A stretch of DNA of 11,196 nt from NCBI GenBank assembly GCA_030765605.1, contig JAVCCG010000080.1, positions 1 through 11,196 of the forward strand, written 5' to 3'. The number at the start of each line of letters is the position of its first letter. Position 1 is the first letter of the stretch. The DNA comes from Candidatus Alcyoniella australis (GTDB lineage Bacteria; Lernaellota; Lernaellaia; JAVCCG01; Alcyoniellaceae). Below the pieces are notes generated by a model, which saw nothing but the letters and a program-made list of their open reading frames with translations, searched no databases and was not told the DNA's origin. Positions 1-11,196 of this stretch are shown piece by piece. A program made the translations under genes and the position numbers.

Positions 1-976
1 AAGCCGGTCCCAGCTCGAGGCTGACCCAGCCGGACTTGACCCGCGTGGTCGAGCGCCGCAGCTCCACCACATAGCGCTCGCCCGAAAGCTTGCCGCGCAC
101 GTTGTCGCCCTCGCGCGTCTGCACCCGGCCCGCCTCGGATCGCCGCAGCTCAATCCCACGCCGGTTAAGTTCTCGCTCGGTTGGCAGGCGATCTTTGAAT
201 AATCCCAAGGCGTTAGGGGAGTGGGGCCGCGCCTCGTGAATTGCCAGATCAGCGTCGATAAGAACCATCGCAGGCGTCATTCCTTGGGCGTAGATCAGCC
301 ATACGCCCTTAAAAAAGCGGCCCGCAGCCTGTTCCCGACGCTCTCGCGCCTGGTCAGCCATCTGCGGAAGTGCATCATATTTAGTGATAAAACGGTCCCA
401 CTCGCTCACCGTGTCCGCCTCGTCGGCAAAGATCCACTGCTGCTGCGCTTCAAGCAGCATGATCCCCTGCTCAGCCTGATCGGCCTGGGGCGCATCAGGG
501 TGCTCGCGCAGGAAATTCTCATAAGCGTCAAAGCTATGCTCTGCCTCAGCTTGAGCCCATGATATCGAATAGATACGCTGCTCGGCCTGTTCGCGGTACG
601 CGCCCTGGGGAAAGCGTCGCAAGTAGTTTTCCAGCGCTGTAAGCGTGTTAAGATCCTGCGCTTGGTGGTATGCGGCCTTGTCAAGATTGATCCGTGCGCG
701 GTTGGCGTGGGAACCATCAGGATACTGCTGTAAAAACAGTGTCCAAGCATCCTCTGTGTCCAGCGACTTGGCCCCCAGGTACGCTGCGCGCTCCTGGGCC
801 CAGGGCGATTGCGGATGGTCCGGGTACTTGTCCGCGAACCCCTGCCAGGCCTGGACAGTGTCGGCCTGGCGCGCTTTGTTAAACGCAGATCCGGCGCAAC
901 CTATTAGCAGCAAAAGTGCGCAAGTGATTAAGATTAAGCCGAAAACAAACCGTCTGCTTGTCGCGATCTTATCCAA
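1..976 (-). CDS. TPR/BamD-like lipoprotein, partial (C-terminus off the left edge)
   Basis: 325 residues are visible, reading leftwards off the window. The start is TTG at 976: an in-frame TAA lies immediately upstream, and a GGGAG Shine-Dalgarno sits about 10 bases before it. Residues 1-27 form a lipoprotein signal peptide (basic Arg8-Arg9, hydrophobic 10-25, lipobox L-I-G-Cys27), so the protein is probably anchored in the outer membrane and faces the periplasm. Residues about 40-215 carry repeated helical segments with a recurring Trp/Tyr-x-x-Phe followed by Tyr/Phe/His-Pro-(Asp/Gln) (near 44-52, 79-87, 117-124, 153-161), the pattern of tetratricopeptide units in BamD/YbgF-type proteins. 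A more strand-like region follows from about 285. Family knowledge: such proteins are scaffolds for envelope complexes; no enzymatic motif is visible. The 8-base overlap with the FAD gene stop implies translational coupling. The specific function is not recognised. Confidence 0.8.
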   Translation of the reverse strand, partial: MDKIATSRRFVFGLILITCALLLLIGCAGSAFNKARQADTVQAWQGFADKYPDHPQSPWAQERAAYLGAKSLDTEDAWTLFLQQYPDGSHANRARINLDKAAYHQAQDLNTLTALENYLRRFPQGAYREQAEQRIYSISWAQAEAEHSFDAYENFLREHPDAPQADQAEQGIMLLEAQQQWIFADEADTVSEWDRFITKYDALPQMADQARERREQAAGRFFKGVWLIYAQGMTPAMVLIDADLAIHEARPHSPNALGLFKDRLPTERELNRRGIELRRSEAGRVQTREGDNVRGKLSGERYVVELRRSTTRVKSGWVSLELGPA

Positions 977-2123
977 TTATCATCGTCTCCCGCTTTAGTC
1001 CGCCTTCCGCAAAGCGCTCCGGACGGTAGGTATGCATCAGCTCCTGATGAGCCCCGTTGGCAAGGTGCTCGGCCATCAGGCGGCCCAAGGTCGGCGCGAG
1101 CATAAATCCGTGTCCCATAAAGCCATGGAATTGGACGAAATTGGGCCGATTTTCCAGCGGACCGAGGATCGGATTGGTGTCCGGCGTGATGTCGTAATAC
1201 CCCGCCCAATGCCGCAGCAGGCTTACTCCGCCCAATCGTGGGAAAAGTTGCGTCATAATGCGACTTAACTTGCGCGCAAAACCCAAACTCGGCTGATAAT
1301 CGGGCTCTTCGTGGTAATCCATGGCCACACAGCCCACGACCTCGCCGCGCACCATCTGCGAGCAGTACAGGCCGCTGTCCATGGGGATCGTTGCCGGGCC
1401 CATGAACGGCTCAACCGGCTCGCAGACGATTATCTCATGCTTTTCCGCCTTGTTCGGCAGCTCAACTCCAGCCAGCGCACCGATCTGCGGGCTCCAGGCG
1501 CCCGCCGCATTGATCACACGCTCGCACTCGATGCGCTCCTCGCCATCCGGGCCGTTGACGCGCACCGCTGTGATCTTGTCCCCCTCGAAATCAAATTCCA
1601 CCACATCACAGTGGATCCTGACTTGGCCGCCCAGGCGCTCGATATTGCGCGCATATCCCCATAGTACCGGGAAAGGGAACATGCTGCCGTCGGTCTGGTT
1701 GAATGCGCCGGCCCTAAACCCGTTGACTTGCAGCTCGGGCTGCACCCGCTTGATACCAGCGGGATCGAGCAGCTTGGTGGGCACTCCGTGCTCGTTTTGG
1801 AACTTGACGTTGCGCGCGAACTGCTCCGCCTGCTCATCCGACGCCGCCAGGAACAAATAGCCGCACTGGCGGAACCAGATGTTGATCCCCATCTCCTGGG
1901 GAAAGCGCGCAAAACAGCGCACCGCCTCGATCATCCATTCGATGTTGCTCTCGTTGGTCCACTGCTGGCGTACGCCTCCGCCGCAGCGTCCGCTGGCCCC
2001 TTGGTTCAGGCCGAGCTTCTCGAGCACCACCACGTCGCTGTGGCCCATGCGGCACAGGTTGTAGCCCAGCGCCAGCCCCAACACGCCGCCGCCCACGATC
2101 ACTGTCCGTCCGATCTTTGCCAT
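969..2123 (-). CDS. FAD-dependent oxidoreductase, DAO family (sarcosine oxidase beta / DadA-like)
   Basis: A 384-residue flavoprotein, the normal size for D-amino-acid-oxidase-family enzymes such as the sarcosine oxidase beta subunit. Visible motifs: N-terminal Rossmann dinucleotide loop GGGVLG at 11-16, followed by an acidic strand end (VVVLEK); GASGRCGGGVR at 42-52, a SoxB-like flavin loop; INAAGAWS at 204-211; and near the C-terminus GYYDITPDTNPILGP (308-322) and HGFMGHGFMLAP (333-344), both typical of this family. It probably oxidises a secondary or primary amine of an amino acid in the cytoplasm; the substrate (sarcosine, glycine, a D-amino acid or other) cannot be read from sequence. 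No alpha, gamma or delta sarcosine oxidase subunit is next door, so it may act alone or have another job. ATG is preceded by AGGAG at 7 bases spacing, and a good sigma70 promoter lies upstream. The lipoprotein gene overlaps its 3' end. Confidence 0.88.
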   Translation of the reverse strand: MAKIGRTVIVGGGVLGLALGYNLCRMGHSDVVVLEKLGLNQGASGRCGGGVRQQWTNESNIEWMIEAVRCFARFPQEMGINIWFRQCGYLFLAASDEQAEQFARNVKFQNEHGVPTKLLDPAGIKRVQPELQVNGFRAGAFNQTDGSMFPFPVLWGYARNIERLGGQVRIHCDVVEFDFEGDKITAVRVNGPDGEERIECERVINAAGAWSPQIGALAGVELPNKAEKHEIIVCEPVEPFMGPATIPMDSGLYCSQMVRGEVVGCVAMDYHEEPDYQPSLGFARKLSRIMTQLFPRLGGVSLLRHWAGYYDITPDTNPILGPLENRPNFVQFHGFMGHGFMLAPTLGRLMAEHLANGAHQELMHTYRPERFAEGGLKRETMIIG

Positions 2124-2150
2124 CTCACTGCTCCTGACAGTTCACGATTG

Positions 2151-2179
2151 TTTATACTACCACCTTCCAGCCCCTTCAA
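2151..2179 (-). promoter_or_regulatory. sigma70-like promoter of the FAD oxidoreductase gene
   Basis: On the minus strand TTGAAG (2179..2174) and TATAAA (2156..2151) are separated by exactly 17 bases, giving four of six and five of six matches to the consensus boxes. The -10 box is 27 bases before the ATG, leaving room for the AGGAG ribosome site. The -35 box overlaps the candidate -35 of the divergent kinase gene, so the two promoters may compete. Confidence 0.6.
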
Positions 2180-2203
2180 CACGGCTGAAAAACGGTATAT
2201 ATT
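2175..2203 (+). promoter_or_regulatory. candidate promoter of the GHMP kinase gene, possibly leaderless
   Basis: TATATT at 2198-2203 is a five-of-six -10 box; TTCAAC at 2175-2180 lies 17 bases upstream but matches the -35 consensus poorly. Transcription would start near 2210, only a few bases from the ATG at 2212, and no Shine-Dalgarno precedes that ATG. Together these suggest a leaderless or nearly leaderless transcript. This is inference from spacing only. Confidence 0.4.
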
Positions 2204-2211
2204 ACGGTGCG

Positions 2212-3351
2212 ATGATAGCACTCGACCAATTGCGGCAACGATTCGACCAAGCCATGTCGGGCCGGCCCGAGGCCTTGGGCTGGGGCCCGGGGCGTGTCAA
2301 CCTGATCGGCGGTCACGTCGATTACAACCAGGGACTGGTGCTGCCGATCGCCATTGACAAGGGGATCGCCACGGCCCTGCGCCGACGCAACGACAAGGCG
2401 TTCAACGTCTTTAGTGTGGATCTGGATCAACGCGTTGAGCTGGCCGCGCTGCCCACGCAGCGCATTGGCAGCTTTGCCGACTATCTGATCGGAGTGCTGC
2501 ACGAGCTGCACGCATTGGGCCTGCCGCAATCGGGCTGGGACGTGCTGACTTGGGGCGATATGCCGGTGGGCGGCGGCCTGTCCAGTTCCGCGGCGTTGGA
2601 GCTAAGCGTCGCCATGGCGGCCTGCGCCGCGTCGGGATTCGAGGTCGATAGAAAGCAGCTCGCCCTGGCTTGTCAACGCGCTGAAAACGGATTCGTGGGA
2701 ATGCACTGCGGGATCCTCGATCAGTTCGCCAGCGCCTTTGGTCTGGCCGACCACGCGTTACTGATCGACTGCCGTTCGCTGGAACATCGCAATGTGGCGC
2801 TGCCGCAGGATGCCTTTGAGGTGGCGGTGATCGATTCGGGCGTGAGCCGCAAACTGGCTGATTCGCGATTTAACCAGCGCCGTCGCGAATGCGAGCAGGC
2901 CGCGCGGGCGCTGGGCGTGGACAGCCTGCGCGACGCCTCGCTGCAGATGCTGCAAAACGCCGGGATCGAGCCGTTGCTCGAACGCCGCGCGCGGCACATT
3001 ATCTGCGAGATCGAACGCGTGAGGCTCGCGGTTCGCGCACTTGAACACGGCGACGTGACGCACTGCGGCGAGCTGATCAGCGCCAGCCACAGCAGTTTGC
3101 GCGATGATTACCAGGTCAGCATGGAGCAGCTTGACGCGCTGTGTCAGCTGGCGGACGGGCTGAGCGGAGTATTCGGCAGCCGGCTGGTCGGAGGCGGATT
3201 CGGCGGCTGCACGATCCACCTGACGCAACGCGGCATTTTTGACACGCTGCGACAAAGAGTGGTCGAGCCCTACAGCCGACGTTTTGACCTCAAGGCGCGC
3301 CTGATGCAGTTCACGGCCGCAAACGGGGCTTTTTCAGAGCATTGTTTCTGA
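2212..3351 (+). CDS. galK: Galactokinase-family GHMP sugar kinase with altered sugar-binding residues
   Basis: 379 residues, the usual galactokinase length. All three GHMP signatures are present: GRVNLIGGHVDYNQG at 27-41, the ATP loop PVGGGLSSSAALE at 118-130, and VGGGFGG at 326-332. The catalytic-base motif GILDQF gives Asp170, and the transition-state Arg is Arg28. Known galactokinases phosphorylate C1 of alpha-D-galactose with ATP in the cytoplasm (Leloir pathway). Two residues that contact galactose in characterised enzymes are different: the Glu of GEHTDY is Gly34 (codon 2311-2313), and the Tyr of SxYNxRR is Phe220. No galT, galE or transporter is visible nearby. It may therefore act on another sugar (plant L-arabinokinases also have Gly at the first position, from memory) or be an unusual galactokinase. 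The ATG at 2212 puts the first motif at the expected distance from the N-terminus but has no clear ribosome site. The symbol reflects family, not proven substrate. Confidence 0.85.
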   Translation: MIALDQLRQRFDQAMSGRPEALGWGPGRVNLIGGHVDYNQGLVLPIAIDKGIATALRRRNDKAFNVFSVDLDQRVELAALPTQRIGSFADYLIGVLHELHALGLPQSGWDVLTWGDMPVGGGLSSSAALELSVAMAACAASGFEVDRKQLALACQRAENGFVGMHCGILDQFASAFGLADHALLIDCRSLEHRNVALPQDAFEVAVIDSGVSRKLADSRFNQRRRECEQAARALGVDSLRDASLQMLQNAGIEPLLERRARHIICEIERVRLAVRALEHGDVTHCGELISASHSSLRDDYQVSMEQLDALCQLADGLSGVFGSRLVGGGFGGCTIHLTQRGIFDTLRQRVVEPYSRRFDLKARLMQFTAANGAFSEHCF

Positions 3352-3411
3352 CCCATTAACGCCATATTTTGTATTGCTTTTTATGGACATACCAGATGTA
3401 GTATTTTTTCC

Positions 3412-3441
3412 TTGACAAGCCGCTGTGAGTTTGACTATAGT
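3412..3441 (+). promoter_or_regulatory. sigma70-like promoter of the anaerobic RNR operon
   Basis: A perfect TTGACA (3412-3417) and TATAGT (3436-3441, five of six) are separated by 18 bases. Transcription would start near 3448, giving a leader of about 150 bases before the nrdD ATG at 3599. The preceding gene ends at 3351 and the operon terminator is at 6592-6619, so this is the natural start of the nrdD-nrdG transcript. Confidence 0.7.
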
Positions 3442-3454
3442 TCTGGCTTGTCAA
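3412..3454. promoter_or_regulatory. inverted repeat bracketing the RNR promoter, possible operator
   Basis: TTGACAAGCC at 3412-3421 is matched by its exact reverse complement GGCTTGTCAA at 3445-3454, 10 of 10 bases with 23 bases between. The left arm contains the whole -35 box and the right arm covers the predicted transcription start, so a protein bound to both arms would cover the promoter. It does not resemble my memory of the NrdR box or an FNR site, so any regulator is unidentified. In RNA the left arm would mostly not be transcribed, which argues for a DNA-level role. Confidence 0.45.
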
Positions 3455-3526
3455 CGGGGAAATCAATTTCAGATCTAAGTCATTAAAAATCAGCTACTTG
3501 GGCAGCCAATATTAAAGTGCTGCTTT

Positions 3527-3584
3527 CGATTTTCGGGTCCAGGGGTGCCTCCTGAGGGCGGGGACGCTGAAAATCGAGATTTTC
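3527..3584 (+). promoter_or_regulatory. nrdD leader with mutually exclusive hairpins
   Basis: Three related segments lie in the leader. A is CGATTTTC (3527-3534), B is GAAAATCG (3569-3576) and C is GATTTTC (3578-3584). A pairs perfectly with B, and the stem is extended inside by GTCC (3537-3540) with GGAC (3562-3565) and by a GCCTC/GAG-GC inner helix. B can instead pair with C as a tight hairpin (GAAAAT, loop CGAG, ATTTTC). Only one can form at a time, and C ends directly before the GGGGGC that is the best ribosome-site candidate for nrdD (3585-3590). This is the layout of an attenuator or riboswitch expression platform, but no ligand or family is recognised. Confidence 0.4.
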
Positions 3585-3598
3585 GGGGGCACTGGGGC

Positions 3599-5608
3599 AT
3601 GGCCACTCGATCGAAAATCTTTTTCATCTTAAAACGCGACGGTCGTAAGGTCGAATTCGACGCCGGGAAAATCGCGTCAGCCGTGGGAAAGGCCTTCCAG
3701 GCCAACGGTGAGCCCAACCCCGAGGCGGCCAGCACCGTCACTCGACAGTTGGTCAGCGTGCTTGAGGTCACCTACGACGACAAACGCATTCCCAACGTTG
3801 AAAAGGTCCAGGACCTTGTCGAGGTAATGCTGATGGAGAACGGCCACCCCGAGGTGGCCAAGCGCTACATTCTGTATCGCGATCAACATTCCAGGCTGCG
3901 CCATACACGCGAGCTGTTCGCCAGCGCGATCGAGATGATCGACGACTACATCGGCCGTAACGACTGGAGAATAAACGAGAACTCGAATATGAGCTACTCG
4001 CTCCAGGGCCTGAACAACCACATCAGCTCCTCGATCAGCAGCTACTACTGGCTGACCCGAATCTACCCGCCCGAGATCGGGCAGCTGCACTCGGGCGGCG
4101 ACGTGCACATCCACGACTTGGGCATGCTCGCGGTATACTGCTGCGGCTGGGACCTCGAGGACCTGCTGCTCAACGGCTTCTGCGGCGCGTTCGGCAAGAT
4201 CGAGAGCAAGCCAGCCAAGCATTTCAGCGCGGCCCTGGGCCAGATCGTCAACTTTTTCTACACCATGCAAGGCGAGGCGGCTGGCGCCCAGGCGTTCTCC
4301 AGCTTCGACACCCTGCTCGCGCCGTTAATCCGCTTCGATGGCCTGAATTACGACCAGGTCAAACAGAAGATCCAAGAGTTTGTGTTCAACACCAACGTGC
4401 CCACCAGGGTCGGTTTCCAAACCCCGTTCACCAACATCACGATGGACTTGGTGCCCTCACCGAACTATCGGGACATGGAAGTGATCAGGGGCGGCAAGCG
4501 GGTCGAGGGTGTGACCTACGGCGAGTTCCAACCCGAGATGGACATCATCAACCGTGCGTTCGCCGAGGTGATGATGGCCGGCGACGCCAAGGGCCGAATC
4601 TTCACCTTCCCGATTCCGACTTACAACATCACCAAAGACTTCGACTGGACAAACGAAAACCTCGACTCGCTGTGGGAGATGACCGCCAAGTACGGCATTC
4701 CCTATTTCAGCAATTTTCTCAACTCCGACCTCAAACCCGAAGACGCGCGCTCGATGTGCTGCAGGCTGCGGCTGGACAACCGCGAGCTGATCAGCCGCGG
4801 CGGCGGCCTGTTCGGCGCCAACCCGCTCACCGGCTCGATCGGCGTAGTGACGATCAATATGCCGCGCATCGGCTACCTGACAAAAAGCTGCGACGAGTTT
4901 TTGGGTCGGCTCGGTTACCTGATGGACATGTCCCGCGACAGCCTGGAGCTCAAACGCGAACAGCTCGAGCGTTTTACCGACGCCGGGCTTTATCCCTACT
5001 CCACGTTCTACCTCTCGCGGATCAAAGACGGGCCGAGCAAGCAGTTCTGGTCCAACCACTTCTCCACAATCGGCCTGATCGGCATGAACGAGGCCTGCGT
5101 CAACCTACTGGGCGTGGACATTGCGCACCCCGAGGGCCAGGCCTTTGCCATCCAGGTGCTCGAGTTCATGCGCGAGCGCATCAGACAGTACCAAGTCGAC
5201 TCCGGCAACCTCTACAACCTTGAGGCCACGCCTGCCGAGGGATCCAGCTACAGGCTGGCCAAGGCCGATCGCAAGCTTTACCCCAACATCTTCGCCCAGG
5301 GCGAATCCGAGCCGTTCTACACCAACTCAAGCCAACTGCCGGTGGACTACACCGACGATTTGTTCGAGGCGTTGGAGCACCAGGAACAATTGCAGACGAT
5401 GTACACCGGCGGCACTGTGCTGCACGGTTTCATCGGAGAGAAGATCAACAACCCCGAGGCGTGCAAACTTCTGGTCAGACGGATCGCTGAAAACTTCCGC
5501 CTGCCGTATTACTCGATAACACCCACATTCTCGATCTGCCCGGTTCACGGCTATATCGCCGGCGAGCACTTCGAGTGTCCGTATTCAGTTGAGGAGGCCA
5601 AAGCATGA
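3599..5608 (+). CDS. nrdD: Anaerobic (class III) ribonucleoside-triphosphate reductase, catalytic body lacking its glycyl-radical tail
   Basis: 669 residues from ATG 3599. The frame stays open up to a GTG at 3545, but homology-like sequence begins with MATRSKIFF and the leader structure lies before it. It reduces ribonucleotides to deoxyribonucleotides by radical chemistry in the anaerobic cytoplasm. Residues about 5-95 are an ATP-cone, the allosteric activity domain. The 10-stranded barrel follows: GGDVHIHDL near 166-174 with Cys181-Cys182 just after, and MCCR at 386-389, where Cys388 matches the thiyl-radical cysteine of the family MxCR motif. Near the end CPVHGYIAGEHFECPY (647-662) supplies Cys647 and Cys660 of the C-terminal zinc site. 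The protein then stops after SVEEAKA, without the RVxGY glycyl-radical segment every functional NrdD needs. That segment is encoded by the next gene, which overlaps by ATGA. The divergent seven-residue tail also encodes a strong GAGGAGG ribosome site for that gene. Confidence 0.92.
   Translation: MATRSKIFFILKRDGRKVEFDAGKIASAVGKAFQANGEPNPEAASTVTRQLVSVLEVTYDDKRIPNVEKVQDLVEVMLMENGHPEVAKRYILYRDQHSRLRHTRELFASAIEMIDDYIGRNDWRINENSNMSYSLQGLNNHISSSISSYYWLTRIYPPEIGQLHSGGDVHIHDLGMLAVYCCGWDLEDLLLNGFCGAFGKIESKPAKHFSAALGQIVNFFYTMQGEAAGAQAFSSFDTLLAPLIRFDGLNYDQVKQKIQEFVFNTNVPTRVGFQTPFTNITMDLVPSPNYRDMEVIRGGKRVEGVTYGEFQPEMDIINRAFAEVMMAGDAKGRIFTFPIPTYNITKDFDWTNENLDSLWEMTAKYGIPYFSNFLNSDLKPEDARSMCCRLRLDNRELISRGGGLFGANPLTGSIGVVTINMPRIGYLTKSCDEFLGRLGYLMDMSRDSLELKREQLERFTDAGLYPYSTFYLSRIKDGPSKQFWSNHFSTIGLIGMNEACVNLLGVDIAHPEGQAFAIQVLEFMRERIRQYQVDSGNLYNLEATPAEGSSYRLAKADRKLYPNIFAQGESEPFYTNSSQLPVDYTDDLFEALEHQEQLQTMYTGGTVLHGFIGEKINNPEACKLLVRRIAENFRLPYYSITPTFSICPVHGYIAGEHFECPYSVEEAKA
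5591..5597 (+). promoter_or_regulatory. strong ribosome binding site inside the 3' end of nrdD
   Basis: GAGGAGG, 7 bases before the ATG of the glycyl-radical ORF, is far stronger than the ribosome sites of nrdD or nrdG. It encodes part of the non-conserved EEA tail of NrdD, which suggests the end of nrdD was reshaped to hold it. It supports real independent initiation of the small ORF. Confidence 0.75.
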
Positions 5609-5817
5609 AGTGCAATCGTAAGACCGAGGTTTATTCCAGGGTTGTCGGCTACTACCGCCCGGTTCAGCAGTGGAACAAGGGTAAGCGCGAGGAATACAAC
5701 CAGCGTAAGACCTATCAGCTCTCGCTGGGCGTCCACAGCGAGCTGCCCGAACGCATCGAGCAGGCCAAGGTCGAGCAGGACAAGGTAGTGCAGATCAACC
5801 TCAACTCAGTCGGTTGA
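5605..5817 (+). CDS. Separate glycyl-radical domain of anaerobic RNR (split NrdD C-terminus)
   Basis: 70 residues. Residues 3-37 match the extreme C-terminus of normal NrdD proteins: a Cys at 3 standing where the last zinc cysteine falls, KTEVYSRVVGYYRPV at 6-20, and QQWNKGKREEYNQRK at 21-35. Gly15 (codon 5647-5649) is the predicted radical-bearing glycine. The remaining half is charged and unlike anything I recognise. The ATG overlaps the nrdD stop (ATGA) in the -1 frame. GAGGAGG at 5591-5597 lies 7 bases before it, an unusually strong ribosome site, so separate coupled translation is more likely than a frameshift product or sequencing error. An in-frame TGA at 5590-5592 just upstream shuts this frame, so it does not read back far into nrdD. 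It must associate with NrdD and be activated by NrdG. The analogy is the small glycyl-radical protein GrcA (YfiD), a spare tail for pyruvate formate-lyase. Confidence 0.88.
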   Translation: MKCNRKTEVYSRVVGYYRPVQQWNKGKREEYNQRKTYQLSLGVHSELPERIEQAKVEQDKVVQINLNSVG

Positions 5818-5830
5818 GTAAGACTCAACC
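5812..5830 (+). repeat. perfect intercistronic hairpin before nrdG
   Basis: GGTTGAGT (5812-5819) and ACTCAACC (5823-5830) are exact complements with a 3-base AAG loop. The stop codon of the glycyl-radical ORF (5815-5817) lies within the 5' arm. No T-run follows, so it is not an intrinsic terminator. A processing or mRNA-stability element, or a brake on nrdG translation, would fit, especially as nrdG has no strong ribosome site. Confidence 0.5.
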
Positions 5831-5854
5831 ACCAGAGGTCGGATCCGGCACACA

Positions 5855-6550
5855 ATGAATATTAAAGGCTTTCAGGGACTATCGCTGATTGAATACCCGG
5901 GACAGCTCTCGGCTATTCTGTTCACCGGCGGATGTGATTTCCGCTGTCCGTGGTGCCACAACCCGGATCTGATCAACCCCAACGGCGACATCCCGAACCT
6001 ACCGTTGGAGCACGCGTTCGAGATGCTCGAACGGCGCAAAGGCTTTATCGACGCGGTCTGCATCACCGGCGGCGAGCCGATGATCCATCGCGAGCTGCCA
6101 GAGTTTATTGCCAAGCTGCGTGCGATGGATCTCAAAATCAAGGTCGACACCAACGGCCATCACCCGAAGATTCTCGCTGAGATTCTTGATAACGGCCTGG
6201 CCGACTACGTGGCAATGGACTTCAAGGCGCCGCTGGAGATCTACAACAAGGCCGCGGGCAAGCTGGTCGACCTGAGCAAGATCGAGCAGAGCATCGACCT
6301 GCTGATGCAATGGGACGGACACTACGAGTTTCGCACCTCGGTGATACCCGGGCTGATCGGCGCACCACAGATCGAGAGCATCGCCCGTCGCATCGAGGGC
6401 GCCAAACTCTACGCACTGCAGCAGTTCCGGCCGCAGGTCACGCTCGACCCGTCGTTACACGATCTCGAGCCTTACCCCAACGCCGAGCTCGAACGCTTTG
6501 CCGGAATAGCGCGCAGCTACATTACGGAGGTCATCCTGCGGGGCGTCTGA
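5855..6550 (+). CDS. nrdG: Anaerobic ribonucleotide reductase-activating protein (radical SAM)
   Basis: 231 residues. NrdG uses S-adenosylmethionine and a 4Fe-4S cluster to abstract a hydrogen from the glycine of NrdD, creating the stable radical. The radical SAM motif CDFRCPWC gives Cys27, Cys31 and Cys34 (CX3CX2C), preceded by the family-typical opening GFQGLSLIEYPG (5-16). TGGEP at 71-75 is the SAM-amino-group motif. A later VIPGLIG segment, a PQ pair and the FRPQ stretch fit the longer activases of deltaproteobacteria and archaea rather than the short E. coli type. It sits third in the operon, 37 bases after the glycyl-radical ORF, with no strong ribosome site and a hairpin in the gap, so its level may be kept below that of NrdD. 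Its target here would be the separate 70-residue protein. An activase for another glycyl-radical enzyme is possible in principle, but context makes NrdG the clear choice. Confidence 0.93.
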   Translation: MNIKGFQGLSLIEYPGQLSAILFTGGCDFRCPWCHNPDLINPNGDIPNLPLEHAFEMLERRKGFIDAVCITGGEPMIHRELPEFIAKLRAMDLKIKVDTNGHHPKILAEILDNGLADYVAMDFKAPLEIYNKAAGKLVDLSKIEQSIDLLMQWDGHYEFRTSVIPGLIGAPQIESIARRIEGAKLYALQQFRPQVTLDPSLHDLEPYPNAELERFAGIARSYITEVILRGV

Positions 6551-6591
6551 TCCCGTGGGCTTGACAATATTGGGAACTCTTTCCGTGGCTT

Positions 6592-6619
6592 GGCCGCTCG
6601 TAAGAGCGGCCTTTTTTTT
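6592..6619 (+). terminator. rho-independent terminator of the nrdD-nrdG operon
   Basis: GGCCGCTC (6592-6599) and GAGCGGCC (6604-6611) form a perfect 8-bp GC-rich stem with a GTAA loop, followed directly by eight T residues (6612-6619). It lies 41 bases after the nrdG stop. Confidence 0.95.
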
Positions 6620-6675
6620 GGGTGCCGTTTGTCATAGTCTAACGAAGATTTTCAGCATCGCATTGGAGGCCGATC

Positions 6676-7413
6676 ATGTTATCCGACTCCACGAAGATCA
6701 AGCTATTGGGCCGCCTGATGGCGTTTTTACAGCGCCATCCGCTGTTGGTCAGGCTGCTGCTGCGGCCGATCGCCAACGCGCCGATCATCTCGAAAAAGAT
6801 GATGGTATTTGTCCGGGCGTTCATGGGCGCCACGGCCTTTGAGCTCCACGACGTTGACCTGCGCAACGGGCGGATCGGCATTGGCGGCGTTGAGGAGATC
6901 ATGGCCGGGTCCAAGCTCATCGAGCTGCTGCACACCACCCTGGGCGAGGCGCTGGACGAGGAGGCCAAGAACCGCGCGCTGTACAGCATGGGTCAACGGC
7001 TGTGCCGCTGGGAGGTCGGGCAGGCGCTGGAGCACGGCCGCTGGGCGCCGGCGGTGCTGGCGCCGCTGATCTTCAACAGCCGGGTGATCGACGAGGTCCA
7101 GGCCGACCCGCAGATGGCCGAGTTCTTCGGCCATGTGATGCGGATGATGTCGCGGCTGATCACCGACGAGGGGGGCTGGGGCCACCTGGATTTCGACTTC
7201 TCGGCCTACCCGCTGAAGGTGATGCTGACCAACTCCCAGGAGGCGCGCTGGCTCGGACCGGCGGACCGGCCGACCTGCCATTTCTACGCGGGCATCGTCT
7301 CGGGCTACGCCAGCACCATCTCGGGACAGGAGCTGACCGCCGTGGAGGTCGAGTGCAAGTCCATGGGCGCATCGCGCTGCGTGTTCGAGCTGAGCAAGAC
7401 CCAAACCGCCTGA
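6676..7413 (+). CDS. Stand-alone V4R-domain protein
   Basis: 245 residues, no signal peptide, start ATG 6676 with GGAGG at 6665-6669 (6 bases spacing). The last 50 residues are a V4R (4-vinyl reductase) small-molecule-binding domain: Cys201-His-Phe followed by a GIVSGYASTISG segment, then Glu226-Cys227 and Gly231-x-x-x-Cys235-x-Phe. V4R domains occur in the sensor modules of phenol/xylene regulators (DmpR, XylR, PoxR) and in BchJ-like proteins, where the cysteines bind metal and the fold binds hydrophobic ligands. The first 45 residues are hydrophobic-basic and may be amphipathic helix. No DNA-binding or AAA+ domain is attached, so it is more likely a carrier, chaperone or sensor partner than a transcription factor. 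It follows the RNR terminator and is probably transcribed separately. The ligand is unknown. Confidence 0.75.
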   Translation: MLSDSTKIKLLGRLMAFLQRHPLLVRLLLRPIANAPIISKKMMVFVRAFMGATAFELHDVDLRNGRIGIGGVEEIMAGSKLIELLHTTLGEALDEEAKNRALYSMGQRLCRWEVGQALEHGRWAPAVLAPLIFNSRVIDEVQADPQMAEFFGHVMRMMSRLITDEGGWGHLDFDFSAYPLKVMLTNSQEARWLGPADRPTCHFYAGIVSGYASTISGQELTAVEVECKSMGASRCVFELSKTQTA

Positions 7414-7587
7414 ACCACCCGCCGCGGGCCGATTTGCGATCAAAGGCAGTTTCGACTGTTTATCAAGAAGTATGCGCGACAATGTCAAGTAATGCTTTAC
7501 CTGTCGTTTCCGCCGTTTTATACGCTGATAACCGTTGCTAAACAACTAGTTGCGCCCCCGTCCCTGGTAAAATACTTTAGGACTTGC

Positions 7588-7882
7588 ATGCGAATTGGGA
7601 TTTCAAATCACAGATTTCGTATAGGTTACGAAGCGCGTATAGTCGTTGATATTACCTGGTAATCGCGATTTGGCTCCATGCGATGTTCATATACTGGTTT
7701 TCTCTGGCGCGTAAAGTCTTGATTAATCAGGGTAATCTTGAAACCCCACGCATGCGATAATCTTTCGAAAAAAACCGCGATTTCCCTGTAATTTCGCCTG
7801 AGTACGACAGGGCTTAGTTGATCGCATAGGTTGAGTTTTCGCAGGTCTGTAAGTTGCCGAATCTAATACGAAATAATCGCAT
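7588..7882. repeat. cluster of five ATGCGA/TCGCAT motifs in non-coding DNA
   Basis: ATGCGA occurs at 7588, 7678 and 7752, and its reverse complement TCGCAT at 7822 and 7877, with spacings of 90, 74, 70 and 55 bases. Four of the five extend to ATGCGAT. About 0.15 occurrences of a given 6-mer would be expected by chance in 295 bases on both strands. The copies turn from direct to inverted at the centre. The motif was chosen after inspection, so the enrichment is suggestive only; function unknown. Confidence 0.35.
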
Positions 7883-8157
7883 GAAAAAATCGGAAAAACA
7901 TTATGTCAACTAGCCGACTTCAGGCGTAATTTTTATTTCGCCGTCCGAGATTTAGTTTTCAATGAGCACCTATATATTTTACCAGGGAGCGGGGAGGTGT
8001 GTCAAATGCCATTGGACTTATGCGGCCCCAATGTTATCGAGCATCGAACACACACAATCTTATAAGTTCATAAAAACAATGTAGCGTGTCCCTGTAATTA
8101 TCGATGATCCTGTCAATCCCCGATAAAAAAAGGCGCTTGAGAAAAATGTAATTACAC

Positions 8158-8186
8158 TTGACAGCTAGGGACCCCAGGTGTATGTC
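8158..8186 (+). promoter_or_regulatory. weak promoter candidate upstream of the 8353 gene
   Basis: A perfect TTGACA (8158-8163) is followed after 17 bases by TATGTC (8181-8186), a poor -10 box matching only at its first three positions. It is the best candidate I see for the 8353-9495 gene pair, with a leader of about 160 bases. Confidence 0.25.
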
Positions 8187-8352
8187 GTAGTCGCCAAGAA
8201 CAAAAAATCGAGACTGAATAAACCATCTAGGCACCCTTTGCACCAGCAGCCCCGTTGATTTACGCCCAAGCAGGGTGCGGGCGTTGGCAAAGCAATGGAT
8301 CACACGATAACAAAATCGGTTGATCCTACACTCCTTTCGCTGTGAGGCGGCC

Positions 8353-9006
8353 ATGGGACTTTGGGGAAAGAGATTCATTAAGGGAGAAAGAGAGAAGGGC
8401 TCGAACGAATCTTCCATCCGGCGAAAGAAAGAAGCTGGTACCGGGGAGGACAAGCAACCCACAATAACGGCTTTTACAGCCTGGCAGTTTGATGAATCTT
8501 GTCTTAAGGGAAAATATGGAGCCTGCACGGGATTAATCGCGGACAATGTAGAAATCATTTTCACAGGCGGAGAGTCGCTGAGCTTAATGGTTCATGCTTG
8601 GATAGTATGCCATTCTTCATATAACTATAAGATCACAGAAGATATGATCACGGCAGGTGAACATGTGATACAGACATCTTCCGTAATATCTTTTCCACAG
8701 GCATGGTTCCAAGTTCCCCTGCCCCCCGCTGAGAGTATGACGGACAGCGATGTTGCGACTCAAATTGCTGAAGAAAACGGCGGTTATGTCATTTCCGGCG
8801 GGGGCATGTTCGGTAGTACGGGGATCTTCATTTTGAATATGAGAATCATCGATGGAAGAAAAGCTCCGCTCTGGTTGATGCCACATCGTTACCAAGATTA
8901 TTTCATCAGGGCCATCGATGCGCAACAGGGAACAATTGTATACCCGGACGTTTCCGACCAATCCGGAATGCTGTTCACCAGCCAAAGGCCCAAAGCGTTC
9001 GGTTGA
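8353..9006 (+). CDS. Hypothetical cytoplasmic protein, unrecognised family
   Basis: 217 residues from ATG 8353, chosen because GAGG (8344-8347) lies 5 bases upstream; the frame is open to a TTG at 8320 without support. I do not recognise the family. Residues 1-45 are strongly basic and polar (GKRFIKG, RRKK) and look disordered. The rest is a mixed alpha/beta domain: a strand-rich region with GGESLSLMVHAWIVCHS near 80-95, a glycine-rich turn VISGGGMFGSTGIF in the second half, and an aromatic stretch MPHRYQDYF near 180. There is no signal peptide, membrane helix or catalytic signature. Base composition is less GC-rich than that of the operons to the left, as expected for transferred DNA. A lipoprotein gene starts 33 bases after its stop on the same strand, so the two are likely co-transcribed and may work together. 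Confidence 0.7.
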   Translation: MGLWGKRFIKGEREKGSNESSIRRKKEAGTGEDKQPTITAFTAWQFDESCLKGKYGACTGLIADNVEIIFTGGESLSLMVHAWIVCHSSYNYKITEDMITAGEHVIQTSSVISFPQAWFQVPLPPAESMTDSDVATQIAEENGGYVISGGGMFGSTGIFILNMRIIDGRKAPLWLMPHRYQDYFIRAIDAQQGTIVYPDVSDQSGMLFTSQRPKAFG

Positions 9007-9039
9007 TATCGGCCACCACTTTGTCCGGGGGGATTTAAC

Positions 9040-9495
9040 ATGAGGATAAAACTAGTTACATGTTTGATGTTGATCGCATTGCTGCTTGGATGTCAGCCTG
9101 ACTCTGAAAGAGGGGAAGTCAAAACACTAAGCGGCCCAGTGCAAATTCAGCCTGACTCTGAAAGAGGGGAAGTCAAAACACCAAGCGGCCCAGTGCAAAT
9201 TCATTACGGCTATCAAGGCGGTGACCCGGTGTGGGCTGTGATTGGCATCGCGAGCTCGGCCGAAGCATACGTGGGCAATGTACTAGTGGGTAAAGCGAAA
9301 GCCTTGAGAATCATCGAGATGGAACAAGGCCCCAATGCTATCGAAGTGGAGGAAACCCACTTTTCGCCCTCCGGCTCTGTGATTTACAAAGGGATCGTCG
9401 TATACTCGTTTGGCTGGCGCGGGAGCAAGCTACAGGAAAGAGCCTTGAGAGGAAAAAAACGAACGGATATATTCTCAAGCTGGCCTTCCGGGTGA
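9040..9495 (+). CDS. Small hypothetical lipoprotein with an internal 18-residue tandem duplication
   Basis: 151 residues, ATG 9040 with a GGGGGGA ribosome site about 7 bases upstream. Residues 1-18 are a clear lipoprotein signal peptide (Arg2, Lys4, hydrophobic 5-16, lipobox L-L-G-Cys18), so the mature protein is lipid-anchored. Directly after the cysteine comes an 18-residue segment, QPDSERGEVKTxSGPVQI, present twice in tandem (residues 19-36 and 37-54) and differing only by Leu versus Pro. It forms a hydrophilic linker between anchor and globular domain. Residues about 57-151 are strand-rich with a basic C-terminus. I recognise no family. The gene follows the 8353 gene by 33 bases and probably belongs to the same transcript. 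Confidence 0.72.
   Translation: MRIKLVTCLMLIALLLGCQPDSERGEVKTLSGPVQIQPDSERGEVKTPSGPVQIHYGYQGGDPVWAVIGIASSAEAYVGNVLVGKAKALRIIEMEQGPNAIEVEETHFSPSGSVIYKGIVVYSFGWRGSKLQERALRGKKRTDIFSSWPSG
9094..9201 (+). repeat. 54-bp tandem duplication, two copies
   Basis: Copies at 9094-9147 and 9148-9201 agree at 53 of 54 positions; the one difference is T at 9128 versus C at 9182, changing Leu to Pro. The length is a multiple of three, so the reading frame is kept. Near-identity including silent sites points to a recent slippage or recombination event. Confidence 0.95.
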
Positions 9496-9602
9496 GTTAT
9501 AGGGATAGAGAAACTATTGTTTCCCAGCTCTTTATTTAGTATTGCACGATAGATATCTGCCTATACCAGTTAACCAGGTGGATAAAATGCTGCGTTACCG
9601 AC

Positions 9603-9713
9603 GTAGATCCTTCACTTCGTTCAGGATGACGGCTCGCGTGCGACTTGCAGCGTTATATCTCGTTGATATCGTACGTAATTTGTCATCCTGAGTCCCTGGG
9701 CCGAAGAATCTAC
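9603..9713. repeat. imperfect inverted-repeat element (REP/MITE-like)
   Basis: The left arm (9603-9630) begins GTAGATCCTTC and ends TTCAGGATGAC; the right arm (9682-9713) begins GTCATCCTGAG and ends GAAGAATCTAC, its imperfect reverse complement. About 50 bases separate the arms. The core GTCATCCTGAG...GAAG-ATCTAC is a motif I associate with dispersed intergenic palindromes in many environmental bacterial genomes. No transposase is present, so if mobile it would need help in trans. Confidence 0.6.
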
Positions 9714-9788
9714 TCTCGCACGGTGAATTTGTTGTGAATTGGCTGACAATAGTTAGGTATGATGTCCCCCGAACTCCTTCGATTTCAA

Positions 9789-9815
9789 TTGACAACAGAC
9801 CCCGGGGACTATAAT
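9789..9815 (+). promoter_or_regulatory. candidate promoter upstream of the LRR lipoprotein gene
   Basis: A perfect TTGACA (9789-9794) and a perfect TATAAT (9810-9815) occur together but with a 15-base spacer, shorter than the ideal 17; the overlapping TAATAT at 9812-9817 would give 17. The palindrome CCCCGGGG sits in the spacer. The leader to the GTG at 10050 would be about 230 bases. Confidence 0.4.
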
Positions 9816-10049
9816 ATATCTCAGTCATCACGAATATAAATTAAAAGCGCTCGGTGCTATCGAGCTGATCTTTGTCACAAACGGAACCTGAAATACCCCG
9901 TTTCAGCGGTTGATATGGGGAATACCTGTTTAAAGGGTTCGCAGGAACAATCTTTGTTCCTCGTTTTCTCTGCGCCTCGATTCTCGCGTCAGCCGCGGAT
10001 CGGATGACCCTATGCAACGGCTCAGCTATTTGTCTTACTGGGGAAGACC

Positions 10050-11196
10050 GTGAAAAAAAGAATCTTTCGCATCGCTTGGCTTCTGATATTTCCCGCACTT
10101 CTTACAGCCGCGGCAGGATGTAAAAAAAACGAGGTTTATTATTCGCCTATATTTATCATAGCAAACGTCAGAATTTTAATGCCGTCCTCTGAGGCCGAGA
10201 AATTCAGTCGGTATAAACACGAAGTCGATGCCGCTGGCAGCGTAGCTTACCTTGACGGCAAGGCAGTCGGCTTGGACTTGGTAGGGCAGTCCATTGAAAA
10301 GACAATGGAGGTACTGAGGGCGCACCCTGAAGCGGCCTCGAGTGTGCGCGCTGATCTCTCGATCCTTTGCAATGCCGAGGTGCTCGAGGCTTTGCAGGCC
10401 CGCTCGTCGGGCCGGATGTGGATCGGCATCAGCGACGAGGGTTTTTCCACGGAGGGGCTTGAGTTCTTTCTGCAACGATTGGATGCCAAGGAGCTCTATT
10501 TGGAATTGGCCAAAGCTGACGATAATGCCTTGGACGTGCTCTCAAACTTCAAGGAACTGCGATGGCTGAGCCTGTCCCGCACCAAAGTCACCGACACCGG
10601 CCTCGCTCACCTCGAGGGGCTCAAGGAGCTGTGGTGGCTGAACCTGTCCGACACCAAAGTCACCGACACCGGCCTCGCTCACCTCGAGGGGCTCAAGGAG
10701 CTGCGAGTGCTGCACCTGTCCGTAACCAAAGTCACCGACTCCGGCCTCGCTCACCTCGAGGGGCTCAAGGAGCTGCGCGTGCTGGACCTGGGGCTAACCG
10801 AATTCACCGACTCCGGCCTCGCTCACCTCGAGGGGTTCAAGGAGCTGCGATTGCTGTACCTAACAGGCACCCAAGTCACCGACACCGGCCTCGCTCACAT
10901 CGCAGGGCTCAAGGAGCTGCGTGGGCTGTCCCTAATACGCACCAAAGTCACCGACACCGGCCTCGTTCACCTCGAGGGGCTCAAGGAGCTGCGCGAGCTG
11001 AAACTGCGGAATACCCAGGTCACCGACTCCGGCCTCGTTCACCTCGAGGGGCTCAAGGAGCTGCGCGTGCTGTACCTGGGTGATACCCAGGTCACCGACA
11101 CCGGCCTCGCTCACATCGCAGGGCTCAAGGAGCTGCGAGTGCTGGACCTGTCCTCTACCAAAGTCACCGACTCCGGCCTCGCTCACCTCGAGGGGC
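10050..11196 (+). CDS. Leucine-rich-repeat lipoprotein, partial (C-terminus off the right edge)
   Basis: 382 codons are visible from GTG 10050, with no stop before the window ends; a GGGGAAG ribosome-like stretch precedes it. Residues 1-24 form a signal peptide (KKRIFR, hydrophobic 8-22) ending in A-A-G-Cys24, a relaxed lipobox, followed by Lys-Lys, so a lipid-anchored surface or periplasmic protein is likely. Residues 25-169 are a non-repetitive alpha/beta domain I do not recognise. From codon 170 nine 24-residue LRRs run to the edge, consensus LRxLxLxxTxVTDxGLAHLEGLKE, the RNI-like class common in large environmental bacterial proteomes. LRR domains bind proteins or glycans. The repeats are nearly identical at DNA level except at codons 3, 5, 7, 8 and, less so, 10. 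No other gene in the window belongs with it by spacing. Confidence 0.88.
   Translation, partial: MKKRIFRIAWLLIFPALLTAAAGCKKNEVYYSPIFIIANVRILMPSSEAEKFSRYKHEVDAAGSVAYLDGKAVGLDLVGQSIEKTMEVLRAHPEAASSVRADLSILCNAEVLEALQARSSGRMWIGISDEGFSTEGLEFFLQRLDAKELYLELAKADDNALDVLSNFKELRWLSLSRTKVTDTGLAHLEGLKELWWLNLSDTKVTDTGLAHLEGLKELRVLHLSVTKVTDSGLAHLEGLKELRVLDLGLTEFTDSGLAHLEGFKELRLLYLTGTQVTDTGLAHIAGLKELRGLSLIRTKVTDTGLVHLEGLKELRELKLRNTQVTDSGLVHLEGLKELRVLYLGDTQVTDTGLAHIAGLKELRVLDLSSTKVTDSGLAHLEG
10557..11196 (+). repeat. 72-bp tandem repeat array encoding LRRs, eight full units plus one partial
   Basis: Units start at 10557, 10629, 10701, 10773, 10845, 10917, 10989, 11061 and 11133, always 72 bases. The second half (GTCACCGAC through CTCAAGGAG) is almost invariant including silent positions. 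Main differences there are ACC/TCC at codon 14, GCT/GTT at codon 17, and CTC-GAG/ATC-GCA at codons 19-20 (units 5 and 8). Variation concentrates in codons 3, 5, 7, 8 and 10. Patchy sharing of marker codons between non-adjacent units suggests repeated unequal exchange or gene conversion. Confidence 0.93.

Follow-up and report, generated by a model that had tools for sequence, protein, structure and literature searches.

Described NrdDs carry the glycyl-radical domain at the C-terminus of the catalytic chain itself (PMC9669993, PMC9531940, PMC11226230), and both large phylogenies and reviews of RNR describe the glycyl radical in these terms. The locus described here, from Candidatus Alcyoniella australis, raises the question of whether that domain can stand as a protein of its own. 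The window, meaning the entire stretch of DNA analyzed, comprises 11,196 nucleotides (contig JAVCCG010000080.1, positions 1 to 11,196). A preliminary description of it had proposed that the radical glycine of NrdD is supplied by a separate small gene. The features of the operon are as follows.

3412-3441, + strand: sigma-70-like promoter TTGACA-18-TATAGT, 11/12 matches, function inferred from sequence only
3599..5608, + strand: nrdD, large (catalytic) subunit, 669 aa, with ATP-cone (PF03477) and class III RNR barrel
4754..4765, + strand: finger-loop motif MCCR, residues 386-389, conserved cysteines including the presumed thiyl-radical Cys
5537..5578, + strand: three presumed zinc ligands of the large subunit, Cys647, His650 and Cys660, in conserved columns
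5591..5597, + strand: ribosome binding site GAGGAGG for the small subunit, within the nrdD 3' end
5605..5608, + strand: ATGA overlap of small-subunit start and nrdD stop, translational coupling expected
5605..5817, + strand: radical subunit, 70 aa, PF13597 positions 526-562, E 2e-10
5855..6550, + strand: nrdG2-type radical-SAM activase, 231 aa, TIGR02495, 193.5 bits, above the curated cut-off
6592..6619, + strand: intrinsic terminator ending the nrdD - radical subunit - nrdG operon, 8-bp stem, 8 T

The large ORF matches PF03477, PF13597 at positions 1-525 (583 bits), and PRK08270 (1017 bits). Its frame is open from GTG 3545, with ATG 3599 the likelier start; the residue number Cys660 used in the preliminary description implies the ATG, not the listed GTG. 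The structure predicted for the chain (pLDDT 85.8, pTM 0.80) has only solved NrdD structures as its best matches, and finger-loop residues Cys387 and Cys388 are invariant in an alignment of 37 NrdDs. No glycyl-radical segment is present in the chain (3599-5608), which closes with ...ICPVHGYIAGEHFECPY-SVEEAKA, seven residues after Cys660-Pro-Tyr (CPY). This end point, as claimed beforehand, is exact to the base, the stop TGA occupying 5606-5608. The claim of a separate 70-residue ORF with Cys3 and a glycyl-radical segment is likewise borne out, both by the sequence and by the PF13597 match: the small chain contains Cys3 (codon 5611-5613), a presumed fourth zinc ligand, and RVVGY with Gly15 (codon 5647-5649), the presumed radical site, and ends in a 32-residue lineage-specific tail. 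The GAGGAGG lying seven nucleotides 5' of its ATG and the ATGA overlap are both in the sequence where they were reported. Because the 562 positions of PF13597 (NRDD) are tiled exactly by the two ORFs, 1-525 by the large and 526-562 by the small, no part is missing, and the locus represents a complete class III RNR cut once.

A dedicated radical-SAM activase, expected of a class III RNR, is present in the same operon. The RVxGY segment, also expected, is present too, but on the second ORF rather than at the C-terminus of the NrdD chain. No class II model scores above cut-off against the window enzyme, which matches PF13597. For the small protein, Pfam, NCBIfam and PHROGs offer no dedicated family beyond NrdD itself and weak matches. 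Elsewhere in the window, the promoter-like site is straddled by an inverted repeat, TTGACAAGCC (3412-3421) and GGCTTGTCAA (3445-3454), which contains the -35 element and is a possible operator; a V4R-domain protein (6676-7413) is encoded directly 3' of the terminator; and an ORF at 10050-11195, with many near-identical leucine-rich repeats (TDTGLAHLEGLKELR...), runs off the contig end.

The cut falls within the zinc motif. Where fused relatives read CPxC-x3-[TC]-EVYSRVVGYYRPV, the large chain of the window ends CPY-SVEEAKA and the small chain starts MK-C-NRKT-EVYSRVVGYYRPV. Cys647 (5537-5539), His650 (5546-5548) and Cys660 (5576-5578) occupy invariant or nearly invariant columns of the NrdD alignment, leaving three candidate ligands on the large chain and one, Cys3, on the small. 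The alignment is compatible with a putative zinc site shared by both chains, a bridging inferred from sequence alone. A zinc ribbon is documented in T. maritima NrdD (PMC4493059).

Seven species were sampled from the class to which the window genome belongs. All four that carry NrdD (the window genome, G002, G004 and G006) have it split, and the other three have no NrdD. The preliminary description had argued for an evolved split, to be refuted should close relatives all prove fused; the relatives show the opposite. It had also proposed a search of related genomes for the same break point and junction; the split is shared, and the junctions differ among class members and are unrelated to each other. 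In G002 and G004, nrdD stops directly after CPY and the small gene lies about 100 bp further on (L014, L015) in place of an overlap, a spacer that cannot result from a sequencing slip or a simple frameshift in those two genomes. Scoring of the 29 radical-segment loci first taken from relatives put 14 in the split and 15 in the fused group; at least one of the latter (L016 of G006) is actually split, because its small ORF lies in a different frame from the NrdD match. A wider sample of 386 genomes across bacteria gave about 39 in which the radical segment has an ORF to itself versus 45 fused, by hand tally among strong radical-segment matches, with about 30 of the split junctions read directly. 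The small gene can be remote from nrdD: it is on another contig in G335 and G306, and about 2.7 kb distant in G150. On a tree of 114 NrdDs, parsimony requires 11 changes between split and fused states, at least five of them forced by well-supported branches, so splitting or re-fusing has recurred, each time close to one position. We conclude that the split is real, has evolved and is common. Separately, NrdD matches in G094, G234 and G362 stop at profile position 531, with no radical segment found by alignment A2; in these the segment is possibly more divergent or differently placed.

Comparison of junctions reveals at least three solutions to the interface among split lineages, and shows that some breaks, unlike that of the window, fall after the zinc site. 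Judged by sequence reading, the window type has a zinc site shared between the chains. In a second type, the large chain reads CPYPHT or CPYEHT and the small chain lacks the ligand Cys. In the third, CPxC is complete in the large chain and is followed by a heptad-like helix, and a matching helix opens the small chain (for example, ...KGKILSEITELKELLEQNVR on the large chain and MEKKDIVAKIEELETKLQAVKGTDCEVYSR on the small). Such heptad-like extensions occur on both new ends in L028, L030, L033 and L218, as expected of two chains that must bind, and by eye they probably form a coiled coil.

Evidence that the divided enzyme works is indirect. Two near-complete genomes encode split NrdD: G106, a single contig with 99% completeness, and G142 (97%). 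Neither yielded a class I/II RNR (PF02867). Since split NrdD is the only RNR found in these genomes, the split enzyme is probably functional, an activity inferred without biochemistry. In the window genome a further RNR is encoded on contig C34 (PF02867), and NrdD may therefore be dispensable there. Codon comparisons show purifying selection on the small-chain core: against the phage copies L041 and L002 it differs at 15 third positions versus four to six amino acids, and the cores of those two copies differ from each other at 14 third positions versus only four amino acids (dN 0.09, dS 1.3).

The window genome encodes only one large NrdD, yet three radical-subunit genes. The two additional genes, encoding 77 and 82 aa, lie on Mu-like prophage contigs (C68 and C83) that also encode Mu Gam-like and GemA-like proteins. 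One viral locus from IMG/VR, L041, shares a tail with the phage copy of the window genome; its ATG overlaps an upstream stop, and it lies downstream of ORFs read as MuA- and MuB-like. Of the best 80 loci from IMG/VR, 40 contain orphan radical-subunit ORFs without NrdD in the flanks fetched, while the rest represent fused NrdD. INPHARED and PLSDB yielded almost no orphan copies, one being from the virus ANMV-1. Orphans in cellular genomes occur beside a Mu portal, Mu F, GemA and Mu transposase (G023), within a ParA, ParB and RPA element (G340), on the same small contig as a thyX (G006), and with MuA- and MuB-like neighbors (G411); further examples are in G386, G404, G405, G410, G412, G413 and G414.

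If orphans serve the host enzyme, they are expected only where host NrdD is split. In the unbiased sample of relatives, they were found in 4 of 39 split but 0 of 45 fused genomes (p 0.043), and within the order of G098 in 5 of 5 split but 0 of 19 fused (p 2e-5). Pooling gives 12 of 62 versus 0 of 61 (p 1.5e-4), a comparison biased by the choice of the orders of G340 and G023 for orphans already known there; kinship among genomes makes all these p-values too small. Orphans also match their hosts in interface type, with types assigned by eye, in 15 of 16 cases (permutation p 1e-4), or 8 of 9 when counted by host genus (p 0.008). The sole mismatch, L224:3704 (G386:C59) on a 4-kb contig, pairs a shared-cysteine orphan with a host of coiled-coil type, and possibly represents a stray phage or misbinned contig. 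Host association and interface match fit docking of the orphan on the host large chain, but do not distinguish help from inhibition. The suggestion in the preliminary description of a replaceable radical subunit finds indirect support in the extra genes on mobile elements.

Alignment A4 defines a second family of radical-segment proteins, about 100 aa long, with a different N-terminal domain. In some genomes it accompanies a segment-less NrdD, adjoining it in G148 and G285, lying between NrdD and NrdG in G272, and located elsewhere in G215 and G344, with G360 ambiguous. In others (G121, G371, G074, G243 and G072) it coexists with an intact fused NrdD, and so duplicates a segment that its target still has, as GrcA does. 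Its neighbors in G121, G243, G371 and G072 are Rrf2 regulators, desulfoferrodoxin or rubrerythrin, the arrangement expected of a spare part beside an intact enzyme. G385 shows the same setting, although its NrdD is cut by the contig end; the G074 gene has no such neighbor. The loci with these neighbors (L243:1536-4425; L249:1404-2628; L251:1868-3602; L245:1685-2567; L221) come from genomes most of which retain a complete fused NrdD elsewhere. The family is therefore a candidate spare part for fused NrdD after oxygen damage, a function inferred from context. In 38 of 80 viral loci from IMG/VR, a second-family member or relative accompanies an NrdD match, which points to phage contigs that apparently encode a split class III RNR of their own. 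On many of these phage contigs (L254-L306) the radical-segment protein is 110-160 aa long.

The locus very probably encodes a two-subunit class III (anaerobic) RNR whose radical chain is separate and is also supplied by mobile copies, its function being inferred. We propose, with good confidence in the inferred mechanism, that the large chain would contribute ATP-cone, substrate site and finger-loop cysteines, while the 70-residue chain would contribute the radical glycine and, in the lineage of the window, the fourth zinc-site Cys. Translational coupling would make both in step. The small chain would dock in the position that the C-terminal glycyl-radical domain takes in an undivided NrdD, NrdG2 would place the radical on Gly15, and catalysis would then proceed as in normal NrdD. 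With the radical site on a small protein of its own, a copy cleaved by oxygen could in principle be exchanged, and other genes could supply the replacement. Mu-like phages and plasmids do carry copies matched to the host interface. It is plausible, at a lower level of inference, that such exchange occurs and that these copies benefit the phage, probably by keeping or seizing dNTP synthesis in an anaerobic host.

Could the division of nrdD instead be an artifact? The two frames differ by a single base at the junction, as would happen if one base gained or lost in sequencing or assembly had broken a normal fused gene. Against so trivial a cause, restoring the frame would leave the last two zinc cysteines separated by at least nine residues rather than two, a ribosome binding site and ATG sit precisely at the junction, the sister lineages stop directly after CPY well short of the small ORF, and many other lineages are split; we regard an error as virtually ruled out. 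Programmed -1 frameshifting at the ATGA overlap, yielding a fused NrdD besides the short form, is likewise suggested by the small frame being the -1 frame of nrdD and overlapping it. It is very improbable, however, given the lack of a canonical slippery heptamer at the overlap as read from the sequence, the long spacers in sister lineages, and the genomes G335 and G306, where the placement of the radical-subunit gene on a separate contig means that separate translation must suffice. Stop readthrough and selenocysteine insertion at the break were also considered and rejected from the junctions of relatives; either mechanism would have to act on two different stops, TAG in one sister lineage and TGA in the other.

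A two-piece enzyme might also be a remnant, the class III system being on its way to loss; the second RNR of the window genome and the three class members without NrdD would agree with that. Yet the catalytic residues are intact, the small core retains the codon pattern of purifying selection, the operon is complete with ribosome binding site, activase and terminator, and in G106 and G142 no RNR other than the split NrdD was found, so that decay, too, seems very improbable. Harder to dismiss, though still unlikely, is the idea that mobile copies are inhibitors, occupying host NrdD to block host dNTP synthesis or to compete with rival phages, since an inhibitor would need the same match to the host interface. 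A mere plug, however, would have no need of the radical glycine and its surroundings, yet every orphan read retains them. Phages of anaerobes also require dNTPs, and other phages come with a full NrdD. Returning to the two-subunit enzyme, we lean, with real reservations, toward a broader picture in which split class III RNR is a large and overlooked group, matched mobile subunits plug into the host enzyme, and the second family serves as a spare part.

If nearly half of sampled segment-bearing genomes use a separate radical chain, earlier analyses have included truncated enzymes in their counts, and the small ORFs that annotations call reductase fragments are genuine subunits. Whether glycyl-radical enzymes beyond PFL have spare parts (PMC8683613) becomes a testable question. 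A virus, if the proposal is true, could commandeer dNTP synthesis in its host, or restore it, by means of a protein of 50-80 residues, a very small viral part for hijacking host nucleotide metabolism. Enzyme work would gain a natural exchangeable radical module, and studies of glycyl-radical domain docking and motion a set of natural pairs.

Within the literature searched, the two-subunit class III RNR is an undescribed form. RNR phylogenies and structural papers mention split enzymes of class II only, RNRdb and a phage RNR survey (PMC3653736) describe no such radical subunit, and direct phrase searches found no two-subunit class III RNR, although only openly licensed literature was covered and absence is not proof. 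ANMV-1 has been published as encoding an oxygen-sensitive RNR (PMC4372165), its protein AJP62049.1 (L202:4680-5114) being named 'anaerobic ribonucleoside triphosphate reductase'. That 144-aa sequence contains no catalytic domain, only its own CxxC...CxxC zinc ribbon and an orphan radical segment of NrdD type. In T4-like phages, nrdD occurs in pieces that have been ascribed to introns, inteins and homing endonucleases or left unexplained (PMC3653736), but not, as proposed for the window, interpreted as a standing radical subunit.

With class III NrdD (PF13597; PRK08270 type) the window enzyme shares barrel, ATP-cone, finger-loop MCCR and zinc residues, and its NrdG2 activase and glycyl-radical motif likewise fall in one operon; it departs in placing on a second protein the radical domain that others keep on the same chain. 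The class II enzyme NrdJa/NrdJb similarly has a C-terminal part, the zinc finger, on a second chain (PMC9669993; see also PMC4520616), but it belongs to a different class with a B12 radical, its detached part bears no glycyl radical, and its catalytic domain is not that of the window enzyme. Among spare-part proteins, only YfiD and Y06I have been validated, others for such enzymes being merely possible (PMC8683613). GrcA/YfiD and T4 Y06I, which serve PFL, are also small separate glycyl-radical proteins, one of the two from a phage. The preliminary description had drawn an analogy to GrcA, which does not extend to kinship: the small ORF matches only NrdD models, not the PFL glycyl-radical domain. 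GrcA, moreover, duplicates a segment that intact PFL possesses and serves after oxygen damage, whereas the large chain of the window has no such segment and no fused NrdD was found in the window genome. As a likeness of operation the analogy stands in part, the small chain being a radical subunit that works partly like GrcA without belonging to its family.
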